From a virus: a DNA stretch of 41,240 bases. The position numbers were made by a program, and so were the translations under genes. This document shows, piece after piece, positions 17,453-41,240 of this stretch (position 1 is its first letter; each line of letters opens with the position of its first letter). The notes below the pieces were generated by a model. It was not told the DNA's origin and made no database searches. It saw only the letters and a program-made list of their open reading frames with translations. The stretch lies in IMG/VR virus record IMGVR_UViG_3300025889_000022, positions 1-41,240 of that record; one strand, written 5' to 3'.

Positions 17453-18066
17453 CCGAATGTCCTCTTTCGTGAATGAAGGCCACCCTCTGGACGCTTGGCG
17501 CGTTCAGAAGCATAGCCAATTGCATCGATGCTGCCTTTGTACATGCTGGCCCACATCGGCATGCGTTCATCGTTTTTGAGATATGGTTCAGCGTGAACCA
17601 GCGACCCGAACAGGTAAGCGTCCGGGTGGTTTGCCAACAGCCAGTTGCTGGTATTGTTATTCGACAACGTCGGTATCTTGGCGTAGTAGGTCATCTCGAC
17701 ATCCGTAGATGCCGAGGGTGCCGGGAAGATTTGGAACTTGTTGTTGATGATCGTGTAGACGATTGGATCACCTGCCCGCTGGGTGGCTCTGACCTCGGCC
17801 ATCCCCATTTGGGCAACGTATTCCAGAACGACCGGCGGCGAGCCGATGGTGATCAGGCTGATTGTCTCCAGCCAATCGACCGGCATGTTGACGTAACCAC
17901 CGCTGATAGTGGACGTGTCCCGCTCGATCATTTCGTTAACGCGAAGCTGCCGGTTGAGAGCCGCTTCAGTCAGCGTGATAAAGGTCGGGATCACCGAGGT
18001 GAGATCGTCGCGGTTTAGCCAGTCAGCAATCGCTGTCTGCAGTTCCGCATACGTTGAGATCGCCAT
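17449..18066 (-). CDS. Head-tail adaptor (SU10-type adaptor family)
   Basis: The start at 18066 (MAISTYAELQTAIADWLNR) follows the glycosyltransferase stop with an ATGA overlap. The 205-residue helical protein carries YAELQTAIADWLNRDDLTSV, FITLTEAALNRQLRV and DWLETISLI, the pattern of the phage SU10-type adaptor that docks under the portal. It lies two genes after the capsid, the usual position for connectors in short-tailed phages. Confidence 0.8.
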   Translation of the reverse strand: MAISTYAELQTAIADWLNRDDLTSVIPTFITLTEAALNRQLRVNEMIERDTSTISGGYVNMPVDWLETISLITIGSPPVVLEYVAQMGMAEVRATQRAGDPIVYTIINNKFQIFPAPSASTDVEMTYYAKIPTLSNNNTSNWLLANHPDAYLFGSLVHAEPYLKNDERMPMWASMYKGSIDAIGYASERAKRPEGGLHSRKRTFG

Positions 18067-30985: not shown

Positions 30986-31533
30986 CAGCGACCACCTCTC
31001 TTCCACCAGTGGTGGCCGTAGTACTTCGGCTCAGAGCCGGTTTCCCAGCCGCCTTGAAAGTTCATGTCGCCGCCGCTGTTGGGGTTGCCGAAGCCGTCAA
31101 TGCGGTCCCGATACCGACCCCCGAAGCCCAGTGAGCCGCCGTACAGGACGTTACGCAGCGCATCACGGCCATCGTCTGTCTTGGCCCAGTCAATGAAGCC
31201 CTGATTGGTAGGCAGTGAGGCGTAATCCATCACACTCCCCGTATCAGCCGCCGGGGGTGTTGCCGGGTCCGGTGAAGGGGCTGGTGAGGGAGCCTGTGAG
31301 ATCGGCATCATGCCCCCACCATAGTTCGGGGGCGTATATCCAGCCGGTGATCCCGCAGGCATGCGAGGCCCCAGAACGCCAAACTGGCCATACTGCTCGC
31401 GCCAGTCATTCCACCACTGCGGCGCATACGCCGAGCCAGTGGCAATATCCCCGGTGCCAGTGTCCTCGGTCTCTTCGTCGCGGCTCCGCCTGCCTTCACC
31501 GCGTCCGCTGCTGCTGCCGCTCGATCCACCCAT
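30985..31533 (-). CDS. Gly/Pro-rich hypothetical late protein (182 aa)
   Basis: The start at 31533 (MGGSSGSSSGRGEGRRSRDE) shares an ATGA with the terminase stop. The sequence is low-complexity at first (Gly/Ser, Glu/Arg), has a Pro-rich block (SQAPSPAPSPDPATPP), a short conserved-looking part (NQGFIDWAKTDDGRDALRNVLYGGS) and ends in HHWWKRGGR. It is probably a flexible virion protein. No family is recognised. Confidence 0.65.
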   Translation of the reverse strand: MGGSSGSSSGRGEGRRSRDEETEDTGTGDIATGSAYAPQWWNDWREQYGQFGVLGPRMPAGSPAGYTPPNYGGGMMPISQAPSPAPSPDPATPPAADTGSVMDYASLPTNQGFIDWAKTDDGRDALRNVLYGGSLGFGGRYRDRIDGFGNPNSGGDMNFQGGWETGSEPKYYGHHWWKRGGR

Positions 31534-32948
31534 CACACAATCCCCTTGATCACACGCCGCAGCGGCTTGCCCGGTATCCAGTGAGACGAACGCCCACCAA
31601 CCCCCGCAGCCATCGATGCAAACGTCAGACAAATAGCGTCAGCCAAGTCCGGAGAGCGCATGCCCCGGCGCTTCATCTCAGCCTTGCCCTCAACCTTGAT
31701 CTTGCCGCTGCTCGTAAACGTGAAACTCGGCGTCACCAGTTCCTGACGCAACTCATCGCTCTTCGGCAGCTTGCAGGCCCGCGCCTCAAGCCACTCCTTC
31801 AGCGACAGCCACAACTCATCCCGCAACTTCGCCGCCTGCTGGTTCAAGGCAGACGCCTCGGACACATTCACGTCCCGAACATTCCACCCCAACTCGCGCA
31901 GGCGATCCGCAACCCCGGAACCCAGCCCAATCGAGTCAACCATTATCTCGACCGGCTTGTCCTTCTTCGCCGCGTCAACCACACGGCCCACCGTCTCCAT
32001 CAGATCAGCACCAGTCCAATGCACCAGATCAGTGATCACATTGCCCTGACGCTTGCACAAGACAGTCCGATCAGACCCGAACCTCGCAACGTCAACCCCA
32101 TAGACAACCGGAACACCCTCATCCAAGAAGATGTCCCGATCCATCGCCGCATCCACCAACTCAGCCGGGATCAGCGTGTCATCATCCGCTAACGGGAACT
32201 CACCCAGCACCCGCACACGATACGCATTCGACCGATCACCATACGTCTGGCGAATTTGCTCAACAAAGTCCGGGTCAACATACGGGTTGTCTACACAACT
32301 CACCCGCATCGTCTTCCACGACTCGCTCAAGCCGTGATGGGTCTGGAAAAACAAGCCACTCGACCGCGTCGGGTTGCCAATCAATACCGTCGTCGCAGAC
32401 CGACCCGACATCGAGCCAGCCGCACTCTCATACACCTTCTCCGGAATAGCCGACGCTTCGTCCGCAATCAGCAGCACGTTCTCCGAGTGAACCCCAGCCA
32501 ACGCCTCCGGACGCTCCGCTGAACTCGTCCTCGCAGAGATAAAACTACTCTCCGGCGCAGCCCTCAAAACCACACGGTCGCTGAACACCTCAAAGCTGTC
32601 CCGCAACCATTCCGGCAACCGGTTGATCCAGTGCTTCAACTCCGCGAACAACGCGTCAAACAACTGCCCCGCCGTAGGAGCCGTGCAGATCGTCTTCTGA
32701 GGGTACTTCACGCTCATGTGCCAGATCATCGCCCAAGCACACGCAACCGACTTCCCAACACCGTGACCCGCCCGGATCGATATACGCCGAACACCAACAT
32801 CTCCCACACTCCGTAGCAAATCCTCCTGCCACGGCTGCGGATCAGCACCCAAAACATCCCGAACAAACCCAACCGGATCGTCCCGATACCGCTCAACAAA
32901 CTCTACCCAAACGCTCGCCGCCGATTTTTTCATATTTTTTCGGCCCAT
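31533..32948 (-). CDS. Terminase large subunit
   Basis: The 471-residue protein has Walker A RAGHGVGKS (residues 59-67), Walker B LLIADEAS (159-166), a nuclease domain with Asp286 (GVDVARFG), Asp338 (MVDSIGLG) and Asp434/437 (RSPDLADA). These are the ATPase motor and RNase H-like nuclease of TerL. ATG 32948 is used; GTG 32951 and ATG 32933 are alternatives. Codons from about 31750 to the start prefer G/T at the third position, unlike the C/G-rich neighbours, suggesting an imported segment. Confidence 0.95.
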   Translation of the reverse strand: MGRKNMKKSAASVWVEFVERYRDDPVGFVRDVLGADPQPWQEDLLRSVGDVGVRRISIRAGHGVGKSVACAWAMIWHMSVKYPQKTICTAPTAGQLFDALFAELKHWINRLPEWLRDSFEVFSDRVVLRAAPESSFISARTSSAERPEALAGVHSENVLLIADEASAIPEKVYESAAGSMSGRSATTVLIGNPTRSSGLFFQTHHGLSESWKTMRVSCVDNPYVDPDFVEQIRQTYGDRSNAYRVRVLGEFPLADDDTLIPAELVDAAMDRDIFLDEGVPVVYGVDVARFGSDRTVLCKRQGNVITDLVHWTGADLMETVGRVVDAAKKDKPVEIMVDSIGLGSGVADRLRELGWNVRDVNVSEASALNQQAAKLRDELWLSLKEWLEARACKLPKSDELRQELVTPSFTFTSSGKIKVEGKAEMKRRGMRSPDLADAICLTFASMAAGVGGRSSHWIPGKPLRRVIKGIV

Positions 32949-32951
32949 CAC

Positions 32952-33223
32952 AGGTTGTACCGCCCCGGTGGGGGGGGGTCCGTTTCTCCGGGGGTTTTAC
33001 CTATTTGCGGTTGAATGTGGGGTTTTTGAGTAGGGAGAGAGGGGGGTGTGTATATATAACTGCCCCCGGCATTGGGGTGACCGGGGGGGTCCGCGCCGGA
33101 ATGGAGCGACCGTGCCGACCCCGCCCGATCCTTGCTCCGCCGCTCTGCAATAAGCGGAACAAACCGTGAACAGATGGCTGCAGGTGATTGGCCATCACCC
33201 TACAAACCAATGTTATCAATGGG
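32952..33223. other. TerS-TerL intergenic segment, candidate packaging site
   Basis: This 272-base gap is the longest non-coding stretch of the window. It holds G-runs, GGGGGGGTCCG twice (32972-32982, 33083-33093), a GACC-GGGGG-GGTC dyad (33079-33091) and a short TA run (33051-33057). No ORF is credible. Its place between the two terminase genes makes it a candidate pac or cos region, but I cannot identify a cut site. A weak promoter or leader role is also possible. Confidence 0.4.
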
Positions 33224-36433: not shown

Positions 36434-36703
36434 TCAGGCCGTCCAGCCGTCCTCGTTGGCCACTGCGCCGATGAAATTGCCCTTCTCGTCGTAGTCCCAG
36501 AGACCGGGTGCGGTTTCGTAAATCCACTCGCCCAGCTTCTGCAGGCGCGGCTTGTCGCTGTCCATCAGAGTGCTGGCGGCGCTTGAAACGCGACCGCAAT
36601 AACGCTGCTCGTCGCTGCGGCTGGTGAACTCCTGCTCTGCGCCGTTGTTGATGTAGTCTTCGCAGATTTCGCGGGCGAGGCTCAGTTCAGTTTCGTAGGT
36701 CAT
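36434..36703 (-). CDS. Array gene b: hypothetical protein (89 aa)
   Basis: The start at 36703 (MTYETELSLAREICEDYINN) uses the leader ACAAGGAGACAACGAC. It continues EQEFTSRSDEQRYCGRVSSA, DSDKPRLQKLGEWIYETAPG and ends LWDYDEKGNFIGAVANEDGWTA. Helical N-terminal half, acidic end. No family is recognised. Confidence 0.7.
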   Translation of the reverse strand: MTYETELSLAREICEDYINNGAEQEFTSRSDEQRYCGRVSSAASTLMDSDKPRLQKLGEWIYETAPGLWDYDEKGNFIGAVANEDGWTA

Positions 36704-36728
36704 GTCGTTGTCTCCTTGTTGTGTGGTT

Positions 36729-36905
36729 TCAGCGGAAATCAAATTCGTCTTCAAAGCCGACAGTCAGGCGAACTGTGTGAGGCCCGTTGAACGTCTTGTC
36801 AGCGTCCATAATCGCGCTGATGGTCCCGTCTTCGTGGAAGCGAACAGTCTCCACGTCGAACTGGGTGTTCTCTGCGATCCACTTCTTGATCTGCTTGCGA
36901 GTCAT
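36729..36905 (-). CDS. Array gene a: hypothetical protein (58 aa)
   Basis: First gene after array promoter 1: MTRKQIKKWIAENTQFDVET, then VRFHEDGTISAIMDADKTFN and VRLTVGFEDEFDFR. Basic N-terminal helix followed by strands and an acidic tail. The leader CCAAGGAGACAACGAC is identical to several other array genes. No family is recognised. Confidence 0.65.
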   Translation of the reverse strand: MTRKQIKKWIAENTQFDVETVRFHEDGTISAIMDADKTFNGPHTVRLTVGFEDEFDFR

Positions 36906-36932
36906 GTCGTTGTCTCCTTGGTTGATGTCTGT

Positions 36933-37975: not shown

Positions 37976-38545
37976 TCATCTCTCCATTTCGGTTGTGAAA
38001 AATTCGTTGAGCAGATCGCTCGCTTCCGTAAGCAGTTTTGGCGACCGCTCGACGCACTGCCTTGCATGCACGATGGACGAGTGGTCCCGCTTCATCGCAC
38101 GGCCTACCTCCGGGTGGGATCGGCCAGTCGCCTTGAGGACACACCACGCGGTGATCTTGCGGGCGTGAACGAGTTCTTTGCGGCGCACCGGGCCGAGAAT
38201 GTCATCGACCGATACGCGGAGCCGGTCGCTGCAGAAATTGATCACCCGCCACGTCAGGTTGGGCTTGTAGAGCGACTTGTGCCGCTCCTGCTCGGCAGCG
38301 ATCCTCTCCTGCAGTTTGGCCAGACGCTTTTCGCGGTCCTCGACCTGCGCCCGGAGTTCAGCCGCCTCTGCTTGCGCTTCATGCAGCCGCTTGACGGTGG
38401 CAGTGAGTTGCTGGCGCAGCGTGTTCGCGCTGGTCCCGTACCAATCCTTGCGAGGCCGGGTCTCGGTCACCATCCGCTGCAGGCTCTCTGGCAAGGCGTG
38501 GTTCACACGGGCTGTGGCGGCGGTAGCATTGGGGTTAATAGTCAT
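37976..38545 (-). CDS. DnaA domain IV-like DNA-binding protein with coiled coil
   Basis: The 189-residue protein has a coiled coil (about residues 42-92) and a C-terminal segment VSVDDILGPVRRKELVHARK...HPEVGRAMKRDHSSIVHA (111-161), the DnaA DNA-binding domain with its RDHS(S/T)(V/I)xHA signature. It has no AAA+ ATPase domain. It might bind DnaA-box-like sites near the origin, regulate replication, or compete with host DnaA. It is placed two genes after the O-like initiator and overlaps its upstream neighbour by 11 bases. Confidence 0.82.
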   Translation of the reverse strand: MTINPNATAATARVNHALPESLQRMVTETRPRKDWYGTSANTLRQQLTATVKRLHEAQAEAAELRAQVEDREKRLAKLQERIAAEQERHKSLYKPNLTWRVINFCSDRLRVSVDDILGPVRRKELVHARKITAWCVLKATGRSHPEVGRAMKRDHSSIVHARQCVERSPKLLTEASDLLNEFFTTEMER

Positions 38546-39068
38546 TGAGTGCGTCCCCCTGCTGCTGCTTGGCTACCTGCCGCTTGAACGCGGCCATCGA
38601 CTGCTGCATCCGGCGGGCGATCTCATCGCCGCTGGGCGTCTCCTTGGCAGCGGATCGAGCGGCCTGCTGGGCGGCGATAAACTTGTCGCCGGCCAACTTG
38701 TCGTCCAGCCAGTCACGGTCGGCATCAAAATCCGAGGGCATTGAGGCTGGCACCTGATAGCCCTTCTCAGCCCGCTGCTCTGGATTGCTCAGTTGAGCCG
38801 CCTGCTGGCCACGCTGGGAGAACAGGGCCATCGTGATGCCCTTGGCCTTGTAGTAGGACAGCCACGCACCCCACTGCTGCGGGTGGTCGATGGGGTTAAT
38901 CGTCACCCCAAAGTCTTCCTTGTGGCGGGCGTTGGCAGCGCAGTAGGCCCTCGCTGCAGCGTAGTAATTACCCGCTGTAATTCCGGACGACGTTGAAGGC
39001 TGCGAGTTCCCGTCGGGCTGCTTCGCGTCTGGCCGCGAACTCGTCGTCACCGGACTGTGCATGTTCAT
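38535..39068 (-). CDS. Hypothetical replication-region protein (177 aa)
   Basis: The start at 39068 has GAGG 7 bases upstream; the gene overlaps the end of the O-like gene by 101 bases in another frame. After a polar N-terminus it reads NYYAAARAYCAANARHKEDF, GAWLSYYKAKGITMALFSQR and then a helical region ending AAFKRQVAKQQQGDALNDY. It lies where lambda has P. A helicase-loader role is possible but no Walker motif is seen, so it is not shown. Confidence 0.65.
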   Translation of the reverse strand: MNMHSPVTTSSRPDAKQPDGNSQPSTSSGITAGNYYAAARAYCAANARHKEDFGVTINPIDHPQQWGAWLSYYKAKGITMALFSQRGQQAAQLSNPEQRAEKGYQVPASMPSDFDADRDWLDDKLAGDKFIAAQQAARSAAKETPSGDEIARRMQQSMAAFKRQVAKQQQGDALNDY

Positions 39069-39720
39069 CTGTCCACCTCTCTTGATTGAGCCACGTCACC
39101 GCCTGCGCGACATAGACCGTCCCCTCGCTGCCCTTCGACCGGCAGTGATTGGCGTAGGCTCTGGCTCCGTTGATGATGTCGTCGGGATTGGTCCCAGCCT
39201 TCACTGCCTTGAGGTACTTGGTGTGGGCTGGCTTGCGAGGGTTTGAACCCTCTCGTTTGGGGTACACGCTCCAGAACTCAGCGAAGCGATCAACCGTATG
39301 TATTGATGGTTCATTGATGGTTATTGACGGTTTGGGGTTCACCGGTGAACCACCCCCCGGTTCATAGCTATGAACCACCCCCCGGTTCGTGGGTGAACCC
39401 GGTTCAAATTGAACCCCCCCCTTCATTTCGGCCAAAGAGGCGGGACGCTCGGTGCCGTCAACAAGCCGTGGCAGGACGTAATACAGGGTGCTGTCGCCGG
39501 TCCTGCTCCGGCGCATAATCAGGCCGTCCTGCTCCAGAACCTTGATGTGCCGCTTGACGGTCGATCTCGAAATTTCACACTTCTTGGCGATGCGATCTAT
39601 GGCGGGCCAGCATGTCCTATCGTCCTCGTTGGCGTGGTCCGCGAGGCAGATCAAAACCAGCTTTCGGGTCGAATCACCGACAACAGTATCGAGCGCCTGC
39701 GAGAGTATCTTGACGCTCAT
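38968..39720 (-). CDS. O-like replication initiator containing the origin
   Basis: Start 39720 (MSVKILSQALDTVVGDSTRK) overlaps the preceding stop by ATGA. Residues 1-85 form a winged-helix DNA-binding domain (SRSTVKRHIKVLEQDGLIMR). Residues 145-215 carry the phage replication C-terminal pattern FAEFWSVYPKREGSNPRKPA, GARAYANHCRSKGSEGTVYV and AQAVTWLNQERWTDE. Between them a Pro/Gly/Asn linker (about 103-143) is encoded by the four palindromic iterons and three 10-mers, as in lambda O. The protein would bind its own gene and recruit the replisome. Confidence 0.85.
   Translation of the reverse strand: MSVKILSQALDTVVGDSTRKLVLICLADHANEDDRTCWPAIDRIAKKCEISRSTVKRHIKVLEQDGLIMRRSRTGDSTLYYVLPRLVDGTERPASLAEMKGGVQFEPGSPTNRGVVHSYEPGGGSPVNPKPSITINEPSIHTVDRFAEFWSVYPKREGSNPRKPAHTKYLKAVKAGTNPDDIINGARAYANHCRSKGSEGTVYVAQAVTWLNQERWTDEHAQSGDDEFAARREAARRELAAFNVVRNYSG
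39302..39421. repeat. Predicted replication origin: four palindromic iterons plus three 10-mers
   Basis: Three tandem ATTGAYGGTT 10-mers (39302-39311, 39313-39322, 39323-39332) precede four dyads starting GGTTC and ending GAACC: 39336-39351 (perfect 16), 39359-39376 (perfect 18), 39384-39399 (imperfect) and 39401-39415 (7-1-7). The first three are separated by the same ACCCCCC. The cluster lies inside the initiator gene linker, the place of lambda ori. The AT-richer 10-mers may be the unwinding element. Confidence 0.8.
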
Positions 39721-39989
39721 TGAGCCAGCCCCCAATCGACAGGTTGCCAGTCCTCATCGATCAAACCTTCCTCGGTGAGGCGGCGCTTCAATTTGGCTGC
39801 TTCGACCGCGCTGATCCGCAGGCGCAGGGCCACCTTACGCTGGAGTGAATCGCCCTCGTACTTGTCCAGCATGCCGTCGCACTTCAGCGACATAATTGCG
39901 ATGAAGTACCAGCGATCAGACGCGGTGAGGCTGATGATCTTCTCGTCGTTGAGGATGTCCGTATAGAGGTAGAACCACGGGTTGCTCAT
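39717..39989 (-). CDS. Small winged-helix-like replication-region protein (90 aa)
   Basis: The start at 39989 has GGGGAG 7 bases upstream and overlaps the previous stop by ATGA. It reads MSNPWFYLYTDILNDEKIIS, SDRWYFIAIMSLKCDGML and KVALRLRISAVEAAKLKRRL, a pattern resembling phage replisome-organiser N-terminal domains. No ATPase motif. It is coupled to the O-like gene by ATGA, so it may act with it. Confidence 0.7.
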   Translation of the reverse strand: MSNPWFYLYTDILNDEKIISLTASDRWYFIAIMSLKCDGMLDKYEGDSLQRKVALRLRISAVEAAKLKRRLTEEGLIDEDWQPVDWGLAQ

Positions 39990-40252
39990 GACTGGTCTCC
40001 CCACTGGATCGCGTAGTCAATGGCGGGGTCCAGACGCTCGGAGAAGGTGACGTAGCCGTAGGTCCGCAGGTGGGCCAGATAGCCGACCACGGTCTCGCGC
40101 TGGACGCGGCCCAGACCGTCCTGCAGGTAGGCCATCTCCAGCCGTCCGAAGCCGTCCTTGTCGGCCTTCAGCGCCATCACCAGCAACACTAGCTTGACCG
40201 GCGTCGGCAATGACTGGGACATCACCTTGTCAATCTTCTTCATCTGCATCAT
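39986..40252 (-). CDS. Small HTH-like protein (88 aa)
   Basis: The start at 40252 or 40249 has GGAG 4-8 bases upstream and overlaps the RusA 3' end by 23 bases. The product contains LPTPVKLVLLVMALKADKDGFG followed by LQDGLGRVQRETVVGYLAHL and RTYGYVTFSERLD, a winged-helix pattern as in phage transcription or replication helpers. No further function can be assigned. Confidence 0.65.
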   Translation of the reverse strand: MMQMKKIDKVMSQSLPTPVKLVLLVMALKADKDGFGRLEMAYLQDGLGRVQRETVVGYLAHLRTYGYVTFSERLDPAIDYAIQWGDQS

Positions 40253-41112: not shown

Positions 41113-41141
41113 ACAATATGCATCATTTGCAATTGCGTCAA
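41113..41141 (-). promoter_or_regulatory. Predicted cro-like gene promoter overlapping the 9-3-9 operator
   Basis: Minus strand TTGACG (41136-41141), 17 bases, TATTGT (41113-41118). The operator copy 41127-41147 covers the -35, so repressor binding would block it. No ribosome site is visible between the -10 and ATG 41105. It should drive the early-right operon. Confidence 0.6.
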
Positions 41142-41240
41142 TTGCAACCTGCAACCTGTGCCGTCGAAATGTGATCCGAGTGCGTGGTAGGGAGTGCATT
41201 ATGAGCGACGTGACCCAGATACATACAGGCAAGACGCCGA
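41114..41240. repeat. Right copy of 127-bp terminal direct repeat
   Basis: Identical to 1-127. It contains the second copy of the cI/cro operator and the first 13 codons of the repressor gene from 41201, so genes drawn here duplicate the left end and should not be counted twice. Confidence 0.95.

Follow-up and report, generated by a model that had tools for sequence, protein, structure and literature searches.

A putative replication origin inside the HTH_36 initiator gene of a temperate phage, with palindromic iterons and an oriented second repeat

The window analysed here (the whole stretch of DNA, an IMG/VR virus contig of 41,240 bases) very probably has its replication origin inside the initiator gene, where four palindromes are the predicted binding sites of the initiator itself. 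A comparison with homologous genes leads us to propose, tentatively, that selection acts in opposite ways on two components of the origins in this HTH_36 group. One, the iterons, tracks the recognition helix of the initiator, and the other, a strand-oriented element termed M2, is nearly invariant across phages of several bacterial classes. Either a conserved region of the initiator or a conserved partner would read M2, probably in single-stranded form.

The initiator gene and its neighbourhood

The ends of the window are identical over 127 bases (1-127 and 41114-41240), so that the record, which does not state its completeness, is probably a complete genome, either circular or terminally redundant. 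Integrase, terminase, scaffold and ejection genes are encoded on it, and the phage is temperate. The gene of interest is the following:

38968..39720, minus strand: initiator gene, 250 aa (phrog_270 and PF13730 matches, AlphaFold model)

The gene starts with the ATG at 39720, in an ATGA overlap with the upstream gene, and the TTG start of the mechanically derived ORF is not used. The protein matches phrog_270 (replication initiation protein; E 7.6e-45, residues 15-229 of the 255-aa ORF) and PF13730 (HTH_36; E 4e-15, above the curated cut-off), and the family match extends across its N- and C-terminal parts. In the AlphaFold model (mean pLDDT 79.6), a confidently predicted winged HTH (residues 1-83) is followed by a G/P-rich, disordered stretch at about 84-140, with low confidence at residues 88-126 and poor values to about 140, and by a C-terminal helical domain (residues 141-243) that matches DnaD-like loader families. 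Among solved structures there was no close sequence match to the initiator but only generic winged HTH domains, and Foldseek returned Fur/MarR/ArsR-type winged HTH and plasmid initiator domains with weak E-values.

Two small minus-strand ORFs lie directly upstream of the initiator. Both have weak matches to initiator N-terminal domains (39717-40004 through phrog_3926/10469 and 39986-40252 through phrog_4617/270), and a BLASTP comparison of the latter with the initiator gave no match. A 177-aa ORF (38535-39068, minus strand) overlaps the 3′ end of the initiator gene by ~100 nt and occupies the place of lambda P; it is without relatives in the phage and viral contig collections searched. Further downstream, a minus-strand gene at 37976-38545 encodes a stand-alone DnaA domain IV (PF08299, E 3e-13) behind a predicted coiled coil, and a similar protein was found in three phage records only. 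Its role may be to interfere with the DnaA sites of the host or to make use of them. DnaA boxes were considered as its partners and rejected, as 11 were found in the record against 13.8 expected. An exact 20-bp direct repeat, GTCATGTCGTTGTCTCCTTG, is present at 36699-36718 and 36901-36920, 202 bp apart, and may reflect the duplication of a leader or ribosome-binding region belonging to small minus-strand genes.

Palindromes and 10-mers in the linker-coding DNA

The sequence-only reading that preceded this work had reported four GGTTC...GAACC palindromes of 15-18 bp, an identical ACCCCCC between three of them and three ATTGAYGGTT 10-mers, all in the linker-coding part of the initiator gene. Each of these elements is present where it had been placed (sequences in gene sense):

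39401..39415: iteron 1, GGTTCAATTTGAACC, 15 bp
39384..39399: iteron 2, GGTTCACCCACGAACC, 16 bp
39377..39383, minus strand: second spacer, ACCCCCC, identical to the first
39359..39376: iteron 3, GGTTCATAGCTATGAACC, 18 bp, perfect palindrome
39352..39358, minus strand: first spacer, ACCCCCC (GGGGGGT in gene sense)
39336..39351: iteron 4, GGTTCACCGGTGAACC, 16 bp, perfect palindrome
39323..39332, minus strand: M2 copy 1, AACCGTCAAT, homologous to the family element GAACCAGTCAAT
39313..39322, minus strand: M2 copy 2, AACCATCAAT
39302..39311, minus strand: M2 copy 3, AACCATCAAT

Iterons 1 and 2 are separated by a single C. The iterons coincide with codons 102-129 of the initiator, about 310-390 nt inside the gene, and the 10-mers with codons 130-140 of the linker. 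Given the AlphaFold domain limits, all repeats thus fall within linker-coding DNA.

The palindromes are highly unusual for this genome. GGTTCN(5-8)GAACC has 5 matches in the whole 41-kb record against 0.15 expected, and none of 100 dinucleotide shuffles of the record reached that number. When same-arm palindromes are counted per 150-bp tile, the tile at 39301 is the richest of the record with 4, compared with at most 2 elsewhere. A lone palindrome of the iteron type, GGTTCAGCGTGAACC, is found at 17585-17599 in the structural region, where ~0.15 would be expected by chance in the record.

As the linker is disordered and rich in G and P, the repeats might in principle be a by-product of a repetitive peptide or of low-complexity sequence. 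Recoding the initiator with the codon usage of the phage never gave more than 2 palindromes in 20,000 trials, however, and in 20,000 shuffles of its own synonymous codons the maximum was 3, one short of the observed four. Moreover, the palindromes occupy two reading frames, as do the 10-mers, and the repetition is therefore at the level of DNA rather than protein. Protein repeats were rejected as its cause on the same grounds, and we regard the by-product explanation as practically negligible.

Cumulative GC skew, which the sequence-only reading had proposed as a check, is flat over 33-41 kb and does not single out the site. The strongest local skew of the record, about -0.3, lies over the terminase region (31500-33000).

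Iteron arms and the recognition helix

We collected 190 genes with the N-terminal domain from viral contigs, bacterial genomes, phages and plasmids, of which 107 remained after removal of near duplicates; the sets were found via a conserved N-terminal peptide pattern and are biased towards gammaproteobacterial phages. Absence of the repeats from relatives, which would have counted against an origin, was looked for and not found, as arrays occur at the same place in the relatives. In 50 of the 107 non-redundant homologues, the linker contains at least three same-arm palindromes beyond the synonymous null. The arrays lie at about nt 260-400 of the gene, with copies mostly 21-25 nt apart, and the window, with its four copies, shares this feature of the phrog_270/HTH_36 genes.

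The arms vary from clade to clade: SfV, mEp460 and relatives have RGTGCA, Shewanella prophages AGTGAA, and others GGGCAG or GGTCAG, CTGTGCC and AGTCCC. The GGTTCA arm of the window is shared with three homologues (L111, L152 and L199), and a search for GGTTCA arrays by DNA alone returned these same O-like genes. A DNA search with GAACCNCCCCCCGGTTC gave 8 contigs, none with a GGTTC...GAACC palindrome, and these were set aside as chance matches.

For 55 genes, distances between iteron half-sites correlated with distances between recognition helices at r 0.65, compared with 0.43 for the rest of the HTH and 0.22 for the C-terminal domain. With the latter two removed, the partial Mantel r between helix and arm was 0.53 (p 0.001 by permutation), a value in which shared ancestry is controlled via the other protein parts alone and is thus not fully removed; the partial r between the C-terminal domain and the arm was 0.14. 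A scan of the N-terminal domain placed the highest correlation at residues 49-58. The same peak was obtained for a second set of 19 genes, found through the 10-mers (partial r 0.40, p 0.002). Such covariation is expected if the initiator's own winged HTH reads the palindromes, and the predicted duplex binding of the iterons by this domain is strongly supported by the comparison.

An alternative is that the palindromes are operators for a repressor, with the origin located elsewhere. The repressor would be either the initiator, controlling its own expression, or the small wHTH-like ORFs at 39717-40252. The palindromic form of the elements would suit this role, as would the weak initiator-like N-terminal matches of two ORFs just upstream. 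However, the array lies deep within the gene and far from its start, its arms track the recognition helix of the initiator itself, and the layout matches that of the lambda, P22 and RepA_N origins (PMC5703833, PMC8022706). We consider the operator explanation quite improbable.

The palindromes could also act as RNA or single-stranded DNA hairpins, for instance in translation control, as a primase site or as a cruciform. Three of the four are perfect, centres included, and the literature on lambdoid origins has considered both hairpins and cruciforms (PMC7466680). However, the single-strand folding of the region is unremarkable at 1.5 sd below shuffles (z -1.5), the centres are not complementary in L111, L152 and most other homologues, and covariation of the arms with the recognition helix would not be expected of hairpins. 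This possibility appears highly improbable to us. The palindromes are best read as binding sites of the initiator, and one feature is odd in that respect: the iterons of the window have unequal lengths (15, 16, 16 and 18 bp), which a rigid dimer would not accept easily. Half-site spacing is constant in most gammaproteobacterial arrays, whereas it varies in the group of the window.

The surroundings of the arrays have some common properties. G-tracts of at least 5 lie between the iterons in 26 of 54 homologue arrays, about twice the synonymous expectation. In 48 of 54 genes, the 60 nt after the array are more AT-rich than the gene mean. The 60 nt on the 5′ side are equally AT-rich, so the enrichment is significant against the gene mean only and AT content alone does not locate the side of unwinding; an AT-rich side was accordingly rejected as a general signature. 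In the window itself, the 40-mer with the highest AT content in the gene (65%, within the top 0.25% of the record) covers the 10-mers just 3′ of the array, and the gene thus has the lambda-type arrangement of several iterons adjoining an AT-rich segment.

A near-invariant element 3′ of the iterons

Most gammaproteobacterial members have two to four copies of GAACCAGTCA(AT) directly 3′ of their arrays, usually 17 or 12 nt apart. The general form of this M2 element is GAACC(A)RTCAAT. It stands just 3′ of the iterons in a single orientation and in more than one reading frame, and it is constant while the iterons vary; its spacing is flexible (10-17 nt) and its orientation fixed. In the 107 genes, exact GAACCAGTCA occurs 137 times in linkers (85 in one frame and 52 in another), with no copy elsewhere in the genes and none antisense.

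The choice of codons is frozen accordingly. The RTSH peptide of the first M2 copy is encoded by AGA-ACC-AGT in 46 of 46 genes with 39-61% GC, whereas outside RTSH the codons AGA and AGT account for 9% and 20% of their residues. Since these genes were chosen by peptide alone, the test is unbiased, and this invariance is a further argument against a by-product of the peptide. A codon-by-codon profile also has its most invariant synonymous sites in the M2 segment, for a set of genes that was chosen for one exact GAACCAGTCA each and is hence biased in comparison with the RTSH count. Sites resembling M2 (at most 2 mismatches) occur at least twice in 85 genes against about 46 in own-codon shuffles, an excess that is not dramatic because such shuffles retain the codons of each gene. 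The more distant members carry related repeats built on an AACC core, of which 24 follow the arrays in divergent genes where 11.2 would be expected, and the Arthrobacter phage Leona carries four copies of GAACCGTCC.

Judged by alignment, the 10-mers of the window are a form of this element. Two and a half copies of M2 can be matched to them without a mismatch, at the cost of three 1-nt gaps and with a score of 41; elsewhere in the record the score is at most 34, and none of 500 permuted motifs reached 41. The window thereby also has the oriented repeats 3′ of the array that are seen in phrog_270/HTH_36 genes, as three AACCRTCAAT copies. Of the two halves of the putative origin, the 10-mers are the better conserved, a point that the sequence-only reading had missed. 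The element appears to be common to origins with unrelated iterons and to be undescribed: in the open-access literature searched, neither the M2 nor the 10-mer strings led to a replication paper or to a description of such an element.

The main rival to our reading concerns what recognizes M2. The palindromes would be origin iterons in this case too, but M2 would be read by another protein, such as a conserved host factor, the helicase loader, primase or a second phage protein. M2 is nearly constant while the recognition helix and the iterons change, and its reader therefore would not use the variable helix. However, pairs of M2 are confined almost entirely to genes of the HTH_36 initiator family. 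The pair in its gammaproteobacterial form was found in 62 viral contigs and lies inside an initiator homologue in all 62. The pair as in the window (AACCRTCAAT, repeated after 0-2 nt) was found in 74 contigs, in 56 of them inside a homologue, and several of the others are cut at contig ends; the iteron arms preceding these pairs are of many kinds. In addition, M2 drifts together with divergent initiators, consistent with the reader being part of the initiator, and the hosts span several classes. A different reader seems to us rather unlikely.

A possible mechanism

In the reading that we prefer, with the initiator acting on both elements, the winged HTH would bind the palindromic iterons as duplex DNA via its recognition helix. 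The initiator complex would then open the DNA 3′ of the array, at the relatively AT-rich M2 repeats (AACCRTCAAT in the window, GAACCAGTCAAT in the family); that unwinding occurs on the M2 side is inferred by analogy. M2 may be a sequence-specific unwinding element, probably bound as a single exposed strand by an initiator oligomer in the manner of TrfA, an assignment to which we give slightly less than even credence. It can be argued that the fixed orientation and variable spacing of M2 fit the recognition of a single strand better than a phased duplex array. The C-terminal helical domain would recruit the host helicase or primase, as we infer from its similarity to DnaD-like loaders (cf. pSK41 Rep). 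The linker, being disordered, leaves its codons free to carry the origin.

Implications

The large group of HTH_36 initiators is mostly annotated merely as helix-turn-helix or replication proteins. Comparison of the homologues yields a testable code that links recognition helix and iteron, and the origins of uncultured phages can be located by sequence alone. The near-invariant second DNA element freezes codon choice across many phages. It also opens a direct way to ask which factor recognizes a lambda-like origin on its unwinding side, a poorly understood step. If our interpretation is correct, M2 is a widely shared signal for unwinding or loading that lies concealed in coding sequence and has so far gone undescribed.

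Comparison with known systems

The location of the lambda origin inside the initiator gene is textbook knowledge. As in the window, four iterons lie midway along the gene, each of them an inverted repeat (about 20 bp in lambda), and an AT-rich stretch follows on the 3′ side; lambda O has an N-terminal DNA-binding domain and a C-terminal part that recruits the helicase. The sequence-only reading had taken the palindromic nature of the iterons for a departure from lambda. This distinction does not hold, as lambdoid iterons are all inverted repeats (PMC7466680) and the lambda sequence agrees. Homology to lambda O, as its term "O-like gene" might suggest, was not borne out either: lambda O belongs to PF04492 and phrog_277 and itself matches PF04492, whereas the HTH_36 initiator of the window has no PF04492 match, hhalign against lambda O gave a probability of 1.9, and homology between the DNA-binding domains is not detectable. 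What stands of the proposed lambda-like origin is the iteron array in the initiator gene, most likely bound by the N-terminal domain of that initiator, together with the arrays of the relatives and their covariation with the helix. No M2 repeats were seen in the AT-rich stretch of lambda. The two kinds of initiator are linked by mosaic proteins, as the N-terminal part of PHROG 391 matches the window's initiator family and its C-terminal part matches lambda O.

The phages SfV, ST64B, mEp460 and their relatives are closer to the window. They have a phrog_270 replication protein, with palindromic iterons and oriented M2 copies in the same linker, but differ from the window in the arm (RGTGCA instead of GGTTCA), in the form of M2 (GAACCAGTCAAT instead of the 10/11-mer AACCRTCAAT) and in the downstream genes. 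P22 and L have distantly related gene 18 initiators, each with its own repeats within the coding region (PMC8022706); these repeats differ from those of the window and, in the available part of that report, are described case by case with no mention of a conserved second element.

Among plasmids, the RepA_N Rep of pSK41 and the chimeric Rep of pPR9, both from staphylococci, combine a winged-HTH N-terminal domain with a DnaD-like C-terminal domain, their Rep boxes are central in the rep gene, and the origin encodes the linker (PMC5703833). The N-terminal domain of pPR9 Rep is PF13730 (HTH_36), as in the window's initiator, and was swapped together with the origin; the pPR9 rep region replicates and is compatible with pSK41 (PMC5703833). 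The window shares with both plasmids the winged HTH and the central repeats, but pSK41 belongs to RepA_N and both are Firmicutes plasmids. The model for M2 is RK2 oriV, where the iterons adjoin an unwinding element of direct repeats, all of which are needed, and TrfA binds one specific strand of it; other Rep proteins also bind a single strand of the unwinding repeats at plasmid origins (PMC4081077). The RK2 initiator and repeats are unrelated to those of the window and the RK2 origin lies outside the gene, the likeness of M2 resting on the orientation and conservation of the repeats.

Iteron origins within genes are thus known from lambda, P22, L and RepA_N plasmids (PMC7466680, PMC5703833, PMC8022706). 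Since inverted-repeat iterons are usual there as well, the putative origin of the window joins a known architecture, and an M2 element common to origins with unrelated iterons would make the HTH_36 group a variant of the lambda kind.
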